This document shows positions 10,722 through 16,699 of a DNA stretch of 64,000 nucleotides, in pieces. The stretch covers positions 4,873,501 to 4,937,500 of the forward strand of contig NZ_JAUSZH010000001.1 in assembly GCF_030817355.1 (NCBI RefSeq), written 5' to 3'. Both the position numbers and the translations under genes were made by a program. The notes under the pieces are model-generated. The model was not told the origin of the DNA. It saw nothing but the letters and a program-made list of their open reading frames with translations, and ran no database searches. How positions within the stretch are numbered: the first letter of the stretch is position 1; each line of letters opens with the position of its first letter. The DNA comes from Streptomyces sp. V1I1. GTDB lineage: Bacteria > Actinomycetota > Actinomycetes > Streptomycetales > Streptomycetaceae.

Positions 10722-11717
10722 GTGGGTTGTTGTTCTTCCGTGCTGATCTCGATAGTTGTTCCGTGCTTCAACGAAGAGGAGATCATCGGCCGCTTCCATG
10801 AACATGTGACCGCAGAACTCTCCCTGCTCGGGCAGGAATTCGAGCTGGTCTATGTGGACGATGGAAGCCAGGACCGGACGCTCCCTCTCCTCGAGGAGAT
10901 CGCCGAGGCCGACCCTCGTACCCGCTATGTCTCCTTCAGCCGCAACTTCGGCAAGGAGGCGGCGATGCTCGCCGGGCTCCAGCATGCCGAGGGCGACGCC
11001 GTGGTCATCATGGACGCCGACCTCCAGCACCCGCCGGAGCTGGTCAGGCGCATGCTGCAGCTTCATGAGGAGGGCTTCGACCAGGTCATCGCCCGCCGCA
11101 CCCGCAAGGGTGACCGGGTCACCCGCACGGTCACCGCCCGCGCCTACTACTGGCTGATCAACCGGCTCGTCGACGTCGAACTCGTCGACGGCGTGGGCGA
11201 TTTCCGGCTGCTGTCGCGCCGCACGGTGGACGCGATCCTCGAACTCACCGAGTACAACCGCTTTTCCAAAGGCCTGTTCGCCTGGGTCGGTTTCCGCACC
11301 ACGACCTTCGAGTACGAGAATGCGCTGCGTGAGCAGGGCCGCTCCAAGTGGAGCTTCGGAAAACTGCTCAACTACGGCCTCGACGGCCTGCTCTCCTTCA
11401 ACAACAAGCCGCTGCGGGCCGCCGTCTATCTCGGGCTGCTGCTTGTCACGCTCGCCATGGCGTATGCCGCCTGGATTGTCGGTGTCGCCCTGGTAAACGG
11501 CGTGGACACCCCCGGGTATGTCACCCTTCTGGTGGCGGTCACGGCACTCTCCGGCGTGCAGATGCTGATGCTGGGGGTGGTCGGCGAGTACGTCGGCCGT
11601 ATCTACTACGAAGTGAAGCGGCGACCGCACTTCCTGGTGAAGGCCACCAACGCCGGCCTTCCGCGCCAGCAGGAAGATGAGCGGCACAAACGCAACGGGG
11701 AGCTCGTAAGACGATGA
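10722..11717 (+). CDS. CsbB/GtrB-type family 2 glycosyltransferase
   Basis: Encodes up to 331 residues. The GT-A domain shows VVPCFNEEEI, YVDDGSQD, SRNFGKEAAMLAGLQHA and MDADLQHPPEL, the last carrying the D-x-D nucleotide-sugar site. Two transmembrane helices follow (about 225-285). This is the architecture of polyprenyl-phosphate sugar transferases (dolichol-phosphate mannosyltransferase, GtrB, CsbB), which load undecaprenyl phosphate with a sugar on the inner face. The start is uncertain: a GTG at 10722 and a GTG at 10740 (giving the usual M-L-I-S-I-V-V-P start) both lack a strong ribosome site. It overlaps the gtrA-like gene by ATGA. Confidence 0.92.
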   Translation: MGCCSSVLISIVVPCFNEEEIIGRFHEHVTAELSLLGQEFELVYVDDGSQDRTLPLLEEIAEADPRTRYVSFSRNFGKEAAMLAGLQHAEGDAVVIMDADLQHPPELVRRMLQLHEEGFDQVIARRTRKGDRVTRTVTARAYYWLINRLVDVELVDGVGDFRLLSRRTVDAILELTEYNRFSKGLFAWVGFRTTTFEYENALREQGRSKWSFGKLLNYGLDGLLSFNNKPLRAAVYLGLLLVTLAMAYAAWIVGVALVNGVDTPGYVTLLVAVTALSGVQMLMLGVVGEYVGRIYYEVKRRPHFLVKATNAGLPRQQEDERHKRNGELVRR

Positions 11718-12127
11718 CGGTCCAGGTCCAGCTGGTCAGGTTCGCCCTGGTGGGGGTGGTGAACACCGGGACGTACTACGGCCTGTATCTGGCCCTGCTC
11801 ACCTGGCTGCCCTATGTGGCGGCGCATGTCGTCGCCTTCGCGCTGAGCATGGTCGGGTCCTTCTTCCTGACCTCGTACTTCACATACAGGACCCGCCCCA
11901 CCTGGCGGAAGTTCCTGCTCTTCCCGCTCACCAACGCGGCGAACTTCGTCGTCACCACGAGCGGCGTCTATCTCCTGGTGGACGTGTTGCACTTCGGCAG
12001 CCGCTACGCCCCGCTGATCGCGGCGGGTGCCGCGGTCCCGATCACCTTTGTCGTGTCCCGGACGATCATGCTGCGCCCGGAGCCGGCCCCGCGCGAGCGT
12101 GAGCCGGAGCGGGTACCCCAGGCGTGA
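11714..12127 (+). CDS. GtrA-family membrane protein (putative lipid-sugar flippase)
   Basis: Encodes 137 residues with four transmembrane segments and the GtrA hallmarks: FALVGVVNTGTYYGLY at the start, VAFALSMVGSFFLTSYFTYR in the middle and the closing helix with FVVSRTIML. GtrA/GtcA proteins are thought to flip polyprenyl-phosphate sugars across the membrane. Its ATG overlaps the stop of the glycosyltransferase, so the pair is coupled, and the YfhO-type acceptor transferase is divergent. A degenerate second copy of the middle of this gene lies 4 kb downstream at about 16138-16328. Confidence 0.92.
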   Translation: MTVQVQLVRFALVGVVNTGTYYGLYLALLTWLPYVAAHVVAFALSMVGSFFLTSYFTYRTRPTWRKFLLFPLTNAANFVVTTSGVYLLVDVLHFGSRYAPLIAAGAAVPITFVVSRTIMLRPEPAPREREPERVPQA

Positions 12128-12142
12128 CGCGGGGAGGCATTC

Positions 12143-12166
12143 GGGGGCGGCCTGGTGGCCGCCCCC
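12143..12166 (+). terminator. Terminator after gtrA-like gene
   Basis: Perfect 10-bp GC stem (GGGGGCGGCC / GGCCGCCCCC) with TGGT loop, 15 nt after the gtrA stop, followed by TTGT. Confidence 0.85.
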
Positions 12167-12242
12167 TTGTCGTAGGCGGGATCAGTCGGTGGGGTCGGCC
12201 GTCCTGGATGGCGCAGAGGAATCCACCAGCATCACCTGAGCG

Positions 12243-12521
12243 TTGGCCCACTCGGCGGCGTAGCACGGATTCGTTGACGATTGCGGTGACCTTCAACGGC
12301 GCCTGCGCCCGGCGCAGGACCTGCTGCCGCGTCATGCGGACTTCGACGAGACGGTCGATCTCCGTGGAGCCGATCCCGGCGTGGGCACGCTGATGAATGG
12401 CACGGACATACGCCTCCGTCTGCAGCAGTCCGGGGACGACCTCCCACTCGTAGGCGTGGAGCTGAGTGGCGATGGCCTCAAGGCTCAGGAACCCCGACGC
12501 CCGGGCTGCCAGCGCCTGCAA
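12243..12521 (-). pseudogene. Relic of HTH/DUF5753 (Scr1-type) regulator
   Basis: About 93 codons read IATQLHAYEWEVVPGLLQTE, then a segment ending LVEVRMTRQQVLRR and KVTAIVNESVLRR. That is the DUF5753 module found at the C-terminal side of Streptomyces XRE regulators of the Scr1 type. The N-terminal HTH and the last third of the domain are missing, and the frame then runs into unrelated sequence, so this is a truncated relic. It marks the left edge of the island between the gtrA-like gene and the SurA-like lipoprotein. Confidence 0.7.
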
Positions 12522-12958
12522 AGGAAGCGTGTGCTGTGTCGTGGCTCAAAACAATTGTCGGAAAAACGCCGCTGGCCTTGGGCGATCACACCGCCATTTG
12601 CCTGCTGAGTAGATGCTTTCCGGTTCGTTCCATTACAGAGACCCGGAGGGTGACCGTCATCACACCCAGGAATAGCGCTTGCTGTATCTCGGTATGACAA
12701 CGTAACTTTGCAGCGCACGCAAGTGGGGGTCTTGTGTGAGCCGGGGGTGAAATAAGAAAGAAGATTGCGACCATCACGGTGGTCGCCTCGCTCTCCGCGC
12801 GAGCCAAAAACTCTATCGAGCCACGACGGCTCCATTCGCGCCCTGGGTAGGCGAAACTGAGGTTTCGTCTGGGCCCGTTCATTTCGTGCGCAATCTTCAA
12901 GGCGGTGCGATGTTACGGCACCGTCTCACTCGTCTGTAAGCGGAATGGGAGACTCACG
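12522..12958. other. Gene-free, lower-GC intergenic stretch
   Basis: 437 nt of visibly lower GC than the flanks, with no reading frame I can support. It should hold the promoter of the secreted-protein gene. Around 12755-12800 one frame reads RKKIATITVVASLSA, which looks like a signal-peptide core, but it has no start codon and no continuation. Confidence 0.5.
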
Positions 12959-13366
12959 GTGGCGAAACTTCGCGGTCGGACTCAACAGCGGGCGGCTACG
13001 GTTACCGCACTCGCTGCGACAATAGCGTTAGCTGGTGCTATACCGGCTCAAGCTGAAGGCAGCAGGGCTACATACATTTCCGCATGGCGCTACGGTGCGG
13101 AGTCCCAGCGTTGGGGTGACGCAAACAACGATGCAGCCGCGACCAGGGTTGTGTTCGCCCTGAACTGTGACTCGGATAAAGCTGGCGGATTCTCGGCGCC
13201 AATCACTCTGTATCGGGTGAGAGGGGGAATCCCCGATGAGGACATGGGGACAAGGATCAACACTTGCAATGCCAGCAGCTGGGGGGATGTGAAAAGTGGG
13301 ACCTACTACTTCGCGTACGAAGGTCCTTACGTAATCTCTGTGAGGAACGTCGGGATCTACTGGTAA
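12959..13366 (+). CDS. Small secreted two-cysteine protein, unknown
   Basis: Encodes 135 residues from a GTG with GGGAG 7 nt upstream; an ATG at 12910 is less likely. Residues 1-31 form a Sec signal peptide (KLRGRTQQR n-region, hydrophobic ALAATIALAGA, predicted cut after A-Q-A). The mature part of about 102 residues has exactly two cysteines, one in FALNCDSD and one in RINTCNASS, which could form a disulfide, and is rich in aromatics (WRYG, YYFAYEG) ending in I-Y-W. One TTA codon lies at 13028-13030. Low-GC codon use differs from the core genes. The end and the W-x-Y-G motif faintly recall lactococcin 972, but cysteines and length differ. Function unknown; secreted effector or bacteriocin-like role is inference from the ABC genes that follow. 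Confidence 0.8.
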   Translation: MAKLRGRTQQRAATVTALAATIALAGAIPAQAEGSRATYISAWRYGAESQRWGDANNDAAATRVVFALNCDSDKAGGFSAPITLYRVRGGIPDEDMGTRINTCNASSWGDVKSGTYYFAYEGPYVISVRNVGIYW

Positions 13367-13389
13367 CCGTCACTCAGCGAACCACCCTG

Positions 13390-13415
13390 CGGGGCTTGCC
13401 TATTGGCAAGCCCCG
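13390..13415 (+). terminator. Hairpin between secreted protein and ABC genes
   Basis: Perfect 11-bp stem (CGGGGCTTGCC / GGCAAGCCCCG) with a TATT loop, 24 nt after the secreted-protein stop and 21 nt before the ATPase ATG. It could stop most transcripts so that the secreted protein is made in excess over the transporter. Confidence 0.75.
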
Positions 13416-13435
13416 ACTTCATCACTTGAGGCCCT

Positions 13436-14179
13436 ATGAAACTCGAGATCAGTCACTGTACTTTTGGATATCGGCGCACGCGACGCGTGCTCGATGGTCT
13501 GTCACTTACCTTTGATTCGGGCTGCACTGTCCTGCTCGGTCCTAACGGTGCAGGTAAATCCACCCTACTCGGAATCGCAGCCACGGCTCTGAGTCCTGCG
13601 TCCGGGCACGTCAGCCTCAACGGGCTGACGCCCAGCTCCAGAAAATTCCGCAAGGAATACCGCAAGGCGGTTGGCTGGCTGCCTCAGTATGTCAAACCTG
13701 TCGCTGGATTAAAGCTCCGCGAGCAGGTCGCTTATGCAGGCTGGCTGAAGGGCATGAGCAGGCGGGATGCGTGGGATGCCGCCGCAGGCGCGCTCCATCG
13801 CGTTGGACTGGCGGAACTCACGAACCGAAGTGGGCGTGAGGTGTCCGGCGGTCAGTTGAGGCGTCTCGGGATTGCGCAGACGCTTGTTCATGGCGCTGAC
13901 GTCGTCCTCATGGACGAACCGACGGCTGGGCTGGATCCGCACCAGCGTGGCGTATTCCGCGATCTCCTGTCAGAGCTTTCCGAGGACACGAGTTTCATCG
14001 TTTCCACTCATCAGACGGAAGACCTGGCGGACATATTCGATACGGTGATCGTGCTGGACGGAGGGGTAGTTCGCTACCAAGGAACAGTTCCTCGCTTCCT
14101 TGCCGAAGCGCCCCCCGATGCTGCTCCAGGGCGGCTGGCCGAGGCTGCGTACATCGGGTATATAAGCAGGGAGGTCTGA
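13436..14179 (+). CDS. ABC transporter ATP-binding protein
   Basis: Encodes 247 residues with GPNGAGKST as Walker A (near 37-45), Q-loop around WLPQY, VSGGQLRRLGIA as the signature, VVLMDEPTAGLDP as Walker B and a STH switch histidine. It belongs to the ABC-2/DrrA/CcmA-like exporter ATPases. GAGG lies 6 nt before the ATG. The next gene, a membrane protein, starts 1 nt after its stop, so they form an operon. Codon 92 (13709-13711) is TTA, which predicts dependence on the bldA tRNA. Likely powers export of, or immunity to, the small secreted protein just upstream. Confidence 0.93.
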   Translation: MKLEISHCTFGYRRTRRVLDGLSLTFDSGCTVLLGPNGAGKSTLLGIAATALSPASGHVSLNGLTPSSRKFRKEYRKAVGWLPQYVKPVAGLKLREQVAYAGWLKGMSRRDAWDAAAGALHRVGLAELTNRSGREVSGGQLRRLGIAQTLVHGADVVLMDEPTAGLDPHQRGVFRDLLSELSEDTSFIVSTHQTEDLADIFDTVIVLDGGVVRYQGTVPRFLAEAPPDAAPGRLAEAAYIGYISREV

Positions 14180-14180
14180 A

Positions 14181-15434
14181 ATGCCCTGGCGATCACTGCT
14201 ACGCACGTCGGGTGCGGTGTGGGGCTTCATGCCTGTCGCTGCTTGGATGTGGCTCATTTCGCGCTCTCCCGACTTTACTTTCACCGTTGGATACTGGGAA
14301 GCGGCGACGGCTCAGATATCCTATATCGGCATCTTTCCTGTGGCCCTTTGTGCGGCAGCGGGAACTTGGGAGGCCGTCCGGCTCAAGCGTTCGCAGATAG
14401 CAGCAGACGGAGGCGCAGCAGTACGCTCGCCGGTCGCCGTGATGTTGCAGCAATTGGGTGTCGTCGGGGCCGTAGGGATGCTCTGCATCGCGTGGGCCCT
14501 CTTCTGTGTAGCCGAGGGGGCCAAGGGAGCCCCGGGAGTTCCGGACTTCAGGGTCATTGCATTGCTGGCATTCTTGGTCTGCACATACGCGTCTCTGGGG
14601 TATGCCGTGGGCTGGCTCCTGCCTGGAATCCTCGCGGTGCCTGCGGTAGCTGTCGGAACCTTTCTGTGGCTTGCCTACCCTGTGGCCATGGACCCGCTGT
14701 GGCTGCGGCGCTTGAACGGCACCAACTTGGACTACTGCTGTGCAGTTGACCGCACATTGGACCCACGCGCGCTCCAGGCTCCGGCCATCGTCGCTTTGGG
14801 ACTCTTCGTGGCGGCTCTCGTCATCATCGGCGGGCGTAGCGCGATGAGCCGTTTGCTCGCGCTTGCGCCGGTGGCGGTGGCCTGTGCCGTCGCCGTGCCG
14901 CTGGTGATGCCCATGGGGTACGACCCGACCCGGAATCGTGATGTCAGCGCCCTGAGTTGTTCTTCGGGTACGCCTCGCATCTGTCTCTGGCCGGAACAAC
15001 AGCATGACGCCAGTAAGTTCAGGATGTGGCTGGAAGAAGGAACGAAGCGCCTCAAAGAAGCTGGCGTTGATCTGCCAGAGACCTATACGCCGTCATTCGT
15101 TGGCCCAACACGGGCCAGGGTCCTCGCTTCCTTGGTGGGCAGCGTTATGCCGAAGGATGCGCCGAGTTGTGCTCAGAAGGGCGCTGCATGGCCTGGCGGT
15201 CGGGCGGGTGCGCCGGTGGCGACGTGGCTTGAACTTACGGCTGGAGGCCGGGCGGACGACGTGGCACAGCGTGTCCTCGGCGACGGAGGCAAGACCCTGT
15301 CTCTTGTCCAGCAGGTACGTGCTCTCCCCGCCGAAGCCCAACTGAACTGGTACCGGACAAACCGAGCGGCACTGACCGACTGCGTGACACAGCCCCAGAT
15401 CGATCCGTCGGCTTATGCGGGAAGTGCCGAGTGA
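14181..15434 (+). CDS. Multi-spanning membrane protein, putative ABC permease subunit
   Basis: Encodes 417 residues with GGGAGG 6 nt before the ATG. About seven hydrophobic segments lie between residues 10 and 250 (for example VAAWMWLISR, VGAVGMLCIAWALF, GILAVPAVAVGTFLWLA, AIVALGLFVAALVIIGG). After them comes an extracytoplasmic C-terminal domain of about 165 residues containing several cysteines (ALSCSS, RICLWPEQ, SCAQKG, TDCVTQ). No full family is recognised; the context next to a lone ATPase makes a permease the best guess. It contains no TTA codon, unlike its three cassette neighbours. The stop overlaps the next GTG start. Confidence 0.8.
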   Translation: MPWRSLLRTSGAVWGFMPVAAWMWLISRSPDFTFTVGYWEAATAQISYIGIFPVALCAAAGTWEAVRLKRSQIAADGGAAVRSPVAVMLQQLGVVGAVGMLCIAWALFCVAEGAKGAPGVPDFRVIALLAFLVCTYASLGYAVGWLLPGILAVPAVAVGTFLWLAYPVAMDPLWLRRLNGTNLDYCCAVDRTLDPRALQAPAIVALGLFVAALVIIGGRSAMSRLLALAPVAVACAVAVPLVMPMGYDPTRNRDVSALSCSSGTPRICLWPEQQHDASKFRMWLEEGTKRLKEAGVDLPETYTPSFVGPTRARVLASLVGSVMPKDAPSCAQKGAAWPGGRAGAPVATWLELTAGGRADDVAQRVLGDGGKTLSLVQQVRALPAEAQLNWYRTNRAALTDCVTQPQIDPSAYAGSAE

Positions 15435-16021
15435 GCTGGTGGCTACGGGTACGCGCGGCGCCGGCCATCTTCGGGTCGCTGCTTCTCGTCGGCTGCGTGG
15501 CAGTCGTCATCCCGTCATCTTCTGTACCGCTGCCGTCGATTGCAGGTGCCTTGGGTACGGGGCTGCCGTTACGTTATCTAGCCCCCATACTGCCAACACT
15601 TATCGTTCTCTACGGGCAGAGTCGTGCCGACCATGCTGCGGAAAAGGTCGCCGTCCGGTCTGTCCCCGTCATGGATGCGATCTTCGTGGTGACAGTGGCA
15701 GTGGTCGCGCTGGTCTCTGCCCCAATAGTCCCCGATGGCATTGCGGTCGGCCGTAATGTGGTGGGGTACCTGGGTCTCGGGTTGACGATCCGCTGGCTGA
15801 CGAATTACCGGGTGGCTGCTGCTGTCAGCACCTTCGTGCCTTTTTTCATCGCGTCGCTCGGTATGCAGGGGCATCGACCGGTGTGGTGGGCATGGGCACT
15901 CCATGAAGGCGGCGATCTGTTCTCCGCAGGATGCGCGCTGGGGCTCTTTTGTATGGGAACAGCTTTACTGTTCCGCGCCCCTCTGTTGCGCAGCAGCGAG
16001 CAGAACGAGGAGAGTTCCTGA
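15431..16021 (+). CDS. Six-helix membrane protein of the ABC cassette
   Basis: Encodes 196 residues from a GTG overlapping the preceding stop (GTGA). About five or six hydrophobic segments run through almost the whole length (LLLVGCVAVVIPSSS, PVMDAIFVVTVAVVALVSAP, FVPFFIASLGM and others), with a short charged tail ending EQNEESS. No conserved family recognised. Two TTA codons occur (15569-15571 and 15965-15967). By position it is the second membrane component of the exporter or an immunity protein for the secreted product at 12959. It is the last gene before the scar with the broken gtrA piece. Confidence 0.75.
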   Translation: MSWWLRVRAAPAIFGSLLLVGCVAVVIPSSSVPLPSIAGALGTGLPLRYLAPILPTLIVLYGQSRADHAAEKVAVRSVPVMDAIFVVTVAVVALVSAPIVPDGIAVGRNVVGYLGLGLTIRWLTNYRVAAAVSTFVPFFIASLGMQGHRPVWWAWALHEGGDLFSAGCALGLFCMGTALLFRAPLLRSSEQNEESS

Positions 16022-16137
16022 CCTCTCAGCTTCCCTGCCCGTGCGGGCGGGATCGCTCAGCCCACGGTGATCACGGGCAGCGGGCCGACCGCACCGGCCG
16101 GCATCGGGACCCGGCCGACCGTCGACGGTTCGCCCTG

Positions 16138-16328
16138 ACCCTGCTGACCCCGCATGTGGCGGCGCATGTCGTCGCCTTCGCGCTCAGCATGGTCGGGTCC
16201 TTCTTCCCGACCTCGTACATCACGTACAAGACCCACCCGAGCTGGCGAAGGTTTTCCTCTTCCCGCTCACCGACGCCGCGAACTTCGTGGTCACCACGAG
16301 CGGCGTCTATCTGCTGGTGGATGGCCAC
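16138..16328 (+). pseudogene. Broken second copy of the gtrA-like gene
   Basis: This stretch matches 11797-11990 of the intact gtrA-like gene closely (shared runs such as GTGGCGGCGCATGTCGTCGC and CACGAGCGGCGTCTATCT). It lacks both ends, has lost a base around 16250 so the frame is broken, and carries other point changes. It is a scar of a duplication or of a recombination that placed the ABC cassette between the two copies. Confidence 0.85.
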
Positions 16329-16499
16329 GGGGTGGACGCCGACGTTCGTCGGTGCCCAGGTGACCCCGAAGTCGGGCAGCTCTCCGGTGGTCCGGGCGAG
16401 GGCGAGGGCGCGGGCCTCGGCCAGGCGGGCGTCCGCATGTTCCAGGTCCTTCATCCGTCCCGCGATCACCGTAGCCCGCAGGTGCATCACGCCCGTCAT
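16329..16499 (-). pseudogene. Relic of an XRE/TPR-type regulator C-terminus
   Basis: About 57 codons read MTGVMHLRATVIAGR, then ADARLAEARALALARTTGE, then FGVTWAPTNVGVH. This is the pattern of the last TPR-like repeats in Streptomyces helix-turn-helix regulators (LAEA-LA-RTGE-xDFG-xxxGPTNVxxH). It abuts the broken gtrA copy directly and lacks the rest of the gene on both sides. Confidence 0.65.
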
Positions 16500-16699
16500 G
16501 GCTTCGATGCCCGCTGGGCGGCGCGCGTCGAACGCGAGGTGAAGGTCGGCCGGGCCGGGCTGACGGCTGCCGGGTGTATCGCAACTTCCGGCGAATCGTC
16601 GGTCGAATCAGTGGCCCAGGCCAGGGAGACTGCCTAACATCGATCACCGCAGGGTCTTGTGCATCGTCGCACAATCACGCCGCACGCCGGGAGGCTCCT

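Follow-up and report, generated by a model that had tools for sequence, protein, structure and literature searches.

A window of 64,000 nucleotides from Streptomyces sp. V1I1 (assembly GCF_030817355.1, contig NZ_JAUSZH010000001.1, positions 4,873,501 to 4,937,500), the whole stretch of DNA analysed here, carries at positions 12,959 to 16,021 a cassette of four genes encoding a small secreted protein, an ATP-binding cassette (ABC) ATPase and two membrane proteins. We consider it rather probable that the cassette specifies an antibacterial protein exported by the Sec pathway together with an ABC operon dedicated to immunity. The cassette itself is real, mobile, recurrent and widespread. To the extent of these searches it is also undescribed; in the part of the literature on Streptomyces bacteriocins and secreted antibacterial proteins that was covered by titles and abstract openings, no description of it was found.

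According to the mechanism proposed, the secreted protein would leave the cell by the Sec pathway, with its signal peptide cut after AQA, and the mature protein would fold into a disulfide-bearing beta-sandwich and damage rival actinobacteria at their cell surface. Together with the two membrane proteins, the ATPase would form an ABC transporter that protects the producer, probably by clearing the protein, or its complex, from the envelope, and a hairpin after the first gene would place the secreted protein in excess over the transporter. If this is true, about one sixth of the sampled Streptomyces genomes (69 of 392) carry a protein weapon that has so far gone unrecognised, accompanied by an immunity operon of its own; the genus is known chiefly for its small-molecule antibiotics. 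The numerous immunity-only loci would then offer ready pairs for specificity testing, and the DUF7224 permeases would gain a function.

Layout, recurrence and linkage of the four genes

The original prediction, made from the sequence of the window, described the four open reading frames (ORFs) as a tight operon of lower GC content in which only the ATPase fell in a known family. All four reading frames were confirmed, on the forward strand: the secreted two-cysteine protein gene at 12,959 to 13,366 (GTG start; precursor of 135 residues, mature protein of 103), the ABC ATPase gene at 13,436 to 14,179 (247 residues), the gene for membrane subunit 1 at 14,181 to 15,434 (417 residues, with a C-terminal DUF7224 outer domain modelled from 14,904) and that for membrane subunit 2 at 15,431 to 16,021 (196 residues, no Pfam family). 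The tight arrangement holds for the transporter genes, with a gap of 1 nt between the ATPase and subunit 1 and a GTGA overlap between the two subunits, but 69 nt containing a hairpin separate the secreted gene from the ATPase. Regarding known families, the claim stands for the secreted protein and subunit 2, which have no Pfam match, but not for subunit 1, which carries DUF7224. The lower GC content was evident at third codon positions (GC3), with values of 0.60 for the secreted gene, 0.63 for the ATPase, 0.69 for subunit 1 and 0.68 for subunit 2, against 0.89 ± 0.055 for 45 other genes of the window delimited with a simple ORF caller (z from -5.2 to -3.7).

The genes clearly co-occur in other genomes. 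With the secreted-protein sequence alone as query, at least 30 of 392 Streptomyces genomes were matched, the match in G035 proving false, while a profile of 37 members gave at least 90 matches in at least 69 of them. Subunit 1 was found in at least 85 and subunit 2 in at least 72 of the 392 genomes. These counts are lower bounds, since few of the best candidates were scored per genome (eight for subunit 2, four for subunit 1 and ten for the secreted profile); a wider scan for the secreted gene, with 27 candidates scored, added one weak genome (G192).

ABC transporter genes adjoin 87 of the 90 secreted-gene matches. A subunit 1 match lies within 3.5 kb in 73 cases, compared with a rough chance rate of 0.0014 per match. 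Among the other 17, eight are accompanied by diverged forms of the three transporter genes (seven with the subunits preceding the ATPase, one in the order of the window), four by a different ABC operon and two (G015 and G145) by no more than an ATPase gene, whole or partial; ABC genes were not found around the last three (G352, G003 and G363). The match counted on contig 13 of G145 is short, weak and not repeated by a local profile search. When the secreted gene and subunit 1 share a strand (68 pairs), they are at least 681 bp apart in 36 pairs, so that the ATPase fits in between, and at most 271 bp apart in 32.

Outside Streptomyces the secreted family is sparse. In the family sample it was found in 4 of 17 genera, and the class sample, with 2 of 90 genera in all, adds one genus to these. 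In four Microbacteriaceae loci, three from Curtobacterium and one from a Salinibacterium metagenome-assembled genome (MAG), the secreted gene and the ABC genes are divergently oriented, and one secreted-family protein was found in a Nocardioides MAG. The ATPase and subunit 1 are nearby in all 20 genome-contig loci, which were found via one signal-peptide-junction pattern and hence favour that subfamily. The secreted gene was also matched on four Streptomyces plasmid records. The three plasmids examined, all linear, carry the four genes in the order of the window, annotated as hypothetical except for the ATPase, and the same stretches hold IS110, IS5 or other transposase genes.

Two further observations concern the placement of copies. 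The secreted proteins of locus L107 (G072) and of the Streptomyces sp. S501 plasmid locus L195 are identical over the compared stretch, and the transporter proteins are 96-99% identical. G504 has two identically scoring secreted-family matches (L163 and L168), one near each contig end, as in terminal inverted repeats.

An occurrence mostly in Streptomyces and its relatives might also be expected of a structural or developmental cell-surface protein with an accessory transporter. We consider this very unlikely, given that the secreted gene was not found in 323 of the 392 genomes, that the cassette is also located on plasmids and that its GC3 in the window is far below that of its neighbours.

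Transporter loci without the secreted gene, and the hairpin

The secreted gene is nearby in 21 of 40 close subunit 1 matches (E below about 1e-30) and missing in 19; searching those 19 stretches locally with the profile did not reveal it either. In 16 of the 19 loci both membrane genes are present, together with every ATPase motif that was looked for; at the other three (L133, L137 and L140) an ATPase match was not obtained. Sixteen genomes have a transporter-only locus with no complete one beside it, and 15 of them have no secreted gene (E ≤ 0.01, all candidates scored), while the sixteenth, G334, has three secreted genes at other loci. G094 and G096 carry one complete and one transporter-only locus each. 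The reverse situation, a secreted gene without ABC genes, was found in 3 of 90 matches, and this asymmetry (19 of 40 against 3 of 90) is the pattern in which immunity without toxin is common and toxin without immunity rare.

Seventeen transporter-only loci (16 of the 19 and the plasmid locus L196) were compared at the DNA level with five complete cassettes. Six of them (L124, L126, L127, L132, L136 and L196) are 85-94% identical to complete cassettes across the transporter genes. Their alignments break off close to where the secreted gene ends, at points from 52 nt before to 21 nt beyond it. The operon of L132 is 93% identical to that of the complete locus L095. Inspection by eye revealed short remnants of the secreted gene in L124 and L126, and neither a remnant nor a transposase piece in L127 and L136; L132 and L196 have, beside the hairpin, what we take to be pieces of transposase genes. 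L137 aligns with complete cassettes over 1.7 kb only, and the other ten loci gave no match of at least 80% identity over 150 nt to the five cassettes.

A transporter kept alone is odd if the protein is its cargo or binding partner, but expected if it confers immunity. It had been proposed, by analogy with bacteriocin loci, that the cassette could make and tolerate an antimicrobial or signalling protein and that its ABC proteins may serve immunity rather than export. A bacteriocin-like unit with ABC genes for immunity gains indirect support from the frequency of the transporter without the secreted gene, the rarity of the reverse and the signal peptide of the secreted protein, which was judged by eye in the window protein and across the family alignment.

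Many peptide bacteriocin loci have adjacent transporter genes, and a dedicated exporter of the secreted protein would be compatible with the adjacency of the genes and with the listing of TIGR03608 (putative bacteriocin export) for the window ATPase, although far below the cut-off (90 against 255 bits). The idea was nevertheless dropped, and we regard it as highly improbable, because the protein has a signal peptide of its own, the transporter is conserved without the supposed cargo, and a peptidase domain was not found in the cassette proteins by Pfam and NCBIfam scans. The transporter-only loci also bear on the suggestion of a signalling pair, in which the secreted protein would serve as a signal specific to a species or strain and the ABC transporter would sense or remove it. 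Secretion, diversification and linkage would all suit such a pair, but the frequency of transporter-only loci makes it unlikely, and in the three plasmid stretches with annotation the cassette has no kinase or regulator as an immediate neighbour, a wider survey of regulators not having been made.

The hairpin of the window, CGGGGCTTGCC-TATT-GGCAAGCCCCG, lies on the forward strand at 13,390 to 13,415, between the secreted gene and the ATPase, has an 11-bp stem and is a proposed partial terminator. In 45 gaps between secreted gene and ATPase the mean hairpin z, calculated from base shuffles, was -3.5 and a stem of at least 8 bp was present in 31, compared with a mean z of -0.4 and 10 such stems in 39 control gaps between other same-strand genes of the same loci. 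The 45 gaps include near-duplicates (L103/L182, L106/L183, L111/L187 and two L179 pieces). A hairpin score of at least 30 was reached in 26 of the 45 (counted by eye) and in 2 of the 39 controls. The place of the hairpin is kept across subfamilies, while its sequence differs, and 14 gaps, including those of L102, L105, L111, L149, L184 and L186, have no stem of 8 bp or more. We infer that it acts as a partial terminator that keeps the secreted protein well in excess of the transporter.

Cassette proteins, partner transporters and insertion site

The mature secreted protein has 103 residues, a mass of 11.3 kDa, an isoelectric point of 5.2 and cysteines at mature positions 38 and 71. Neither this protein nor subunit 2 matched anything in Pfam or NCBIfam at E ≤ 1. 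The predicted model of the secreted protein is an eight-strand beta-sandwich (pLDDT, the predicted local distance difference test score, 94.8), obtained with a fold alignment (A4) that excluded L179, L182, L185, L190-L192 and part of the further homologue matches. Foldseek with this model gave no match at E ≤ 0.001, and the VIA-align matches listed were common beta-sandwiches only, with a weak likeness to carbohydrate-binding and GOLD domains. A search of PDB sequences with the family profile produced chance-level matches only (best C1q, E 0.037). Six PHROGs families were matched, each by 1 of the 37 members (best E 0.0072), and the secreted protein was unmatched in 50,697 phage records.

Concerning the transporter, the window ATPase belongs to the generic ABC_tran family of Pfam, and its PADLOC matches (best mad3, E 1.9e-28) were read as generic P-loop matches. 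Residues 267-401 of subunit 1 match DUF7224 (PF23866; 96.3 bits against a gathering threshold of 27, E 2e-27), a named but uncharacterised Pfam domain, on which a literature search found no paper. Searches with this outer domain gave best E values of 2.2 (Foldseek) and 0.46 (PDB sequences). An M1-like metallopeptidase was considered for DUF7224 and rejected, as HExxH, the zinc motif of these enzymes, was absent from all sequences aligned (34 in one set and 19 in another). Subunits 1 and 2 match no ABC-2 or lantibiotic-protection model in the Pfam and NCBIfam scans, and viral contigs gave no confirmed subunit 1 match.

In L213, L214, L216 and L218 a different ABC operon follows a secreted-family gene (profile E 5e-12 to 7e-7). 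Its ATPase is about 33% identical to that of the window, and the two such ATPases scanned list TIGR03740 first or second (182 and 176 bits against a cut-off of 310), beside a daunorubicin-resistance model. For one of the secreted proteins paired with this second type, alignment to the family profile reached a probability of 98.1%. What stays constant is the pairing of a secreted protein with a transporter, rather than any particular transporter. In L109, L110, L181 and L194 two or three secreted paralogues stand beside one transporter operon.

This constancy of linkage, the weak likeness of the model to carbohydrate-binding and GOLD domains, and the resemblance of the second ABC type, below cut-off, to protection and resistance transporters could also be accounted for by a toxin-free unit of defence or envelope stress response. 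Outside the cell the protein would bind a foreign compound or lipid, which the transporter would then remove. We assign this explanation a low but appreciable probability. Binding proteins of Gram-positive bacteria usually carry a lipid anchor, and none was seen on the secreted protein; moreover, of the 19 loci that lack the protein 16 retain the transporter with intact motifs, several paralogues may accompany one transporter, and the family is paired with a second ABC type, all of which speaks against a binding role.

For the preferred reading, an antibacterial protein with its immunity operon, co-divergence was evaluated in 31 of the 37 complete cassettes, six duplicates being dropped. The secreted proteins had a mean identity of 0.45, the ATPases of 0.59 and each of the subunits of 0.37. 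With ATPase distance removed, secreted-protein distance gave a partial r of 0.46 with subunit 1 and 0.33 with subunit 2 (0 of 1000 label permutations each), which would fit recognition between the secreted protein and the membrane subunits. Three limits apply to this evidence. The co-divergence signal is confounded by ancestry; the subunit 1 search, made with a single sequence, overlooks diverged loci, so that the figure of 19 of 40 covers close relatives only; and the secreted-family profile (A1) was built from some of the same genomes in which its matches were then counted.

The insertion carrying the cassette measures about 4.5 kb (12,106 to 16,591), as compared with three relatives in which GtrA directly precedes a SurA-like gene. 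Seven GtrA regions were compared. In three (L197, L198 and L199) sequence matching the window from 16,592-16,604 onwards begins 15-75 bp after GtrA, and the remaining four match on the GtrA side only. The insert contains a second, partial GtrA copy at 16,154 to 16,321 on the forward strand, in two pieces 90% and 89% identical to 11,814-11,982; it is about 90% identical to the window's own GtrA but only 71-76% to that of the relatives. A fragment of a DUF5753 regulator, of the XRE type, lies on the reverse strand at about 12,240 to 12,491, near the left edge of the insert (residues 11-94 of the ORF at 12,066-12,521; profile positions 4-85 of 178). The relic-bearing borders noted in the original prediction are therefore present, and the horizontal gain it suggested is supported by the empty site in three relatives, the low GC content and the occurrence of the operon on plasmids. 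Both relics fit recombination with flank duplication better than clean transposition, and the cassette probably arrived in this manner; no transposase was seen among the listed ORFs of the window, in which no search aimed at transposases was made. The glycosyltransferase gene adjoining GtrA (10,722-11,717) has PgfS as its best NCBIfam model, below the cut-off (407 against 500 bits).

Comparison with known systems

Bacteriocins of the lactococcin 972 family bind lipid II and inhibit septum formation. Their loci and that of the window have in common a gene for a small secreted protein in first position and genes for an ABC ATPase and membrane proteins downstream. According to two reports, lactococcin 972 and streptococcin B are small beta-sandwich bacteriocins thought to be exported by the Sec pathway, the downstream genes are proposed to encode an immunity ABC transporter, and the original lactococcin 972, which is plasmid-borne, aids plasmid maintenance (PMC4055356, PMC11796350). 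The functions of B and C are described there as unverified in any lactococcin 972-type locus (PMC11796350). Searches for membership of this family were negative or marginal, PF09683 being matched by 0 of 37 secreted-family members at E ≤ 1, TIGR01653 of NCBIfam by one of 37 (E 0.0095), and a profile comparison with one Streptomyces PF09683 protein giving 0.4%. Structures 2lgn and 9hkj, which have the lactococcin 972 fold, were not among the 50 matches listed for the beta-sandwich model, a result that excludes nothing. The mature protein of the window is longer (103 residues, compared with 66 in the 2lgn chain), and the cassette differs further in its two conserved cysteines and two membrane subunits, one of them with DUF7224. 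The best reading is that the cassette may work like lactococcin 972, with no homology by sequence. A cassette of the DUF7224 type and a protein of the lactococcin 972 family occur together in one genome, G010 (L224, L121).

Lantibiotic protection by LanFEG relies on an ATPase and two membrane proteins encoded in one operon. The cassette has this layout in common with LanFEG and the gallidermin-type protection transporters (TIGR03740), and the second ABC type lists TIGR03740 first or second, below cut-off. In contrast, this model is not among the best 25 for the window ATPase, and the window subunits match no lantibiotic-protection model.

A precedent for orphan immunity operons comes from enterococci. 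Mr10EFGH, an enterocin immunity ABC transporter, is described as occurring with different bacteriocins and also as an orphan without any (PMC10598978), and the transporter-only loci described here would fit immunity. The enterococcal system, however, concerns circular or leaderless bacteriocins, and orphans are described as infrequent there (PMC10598978), whereas they make up 19 of 40 close matches here. Finally, Streptomyces umbrella toxins are reported to be secreted antibacterial proteins aimed at competing species (PMC11062931); those are protein complexes, whereas the protein of the cassette is a single small domain accompanied by an ABC operon.

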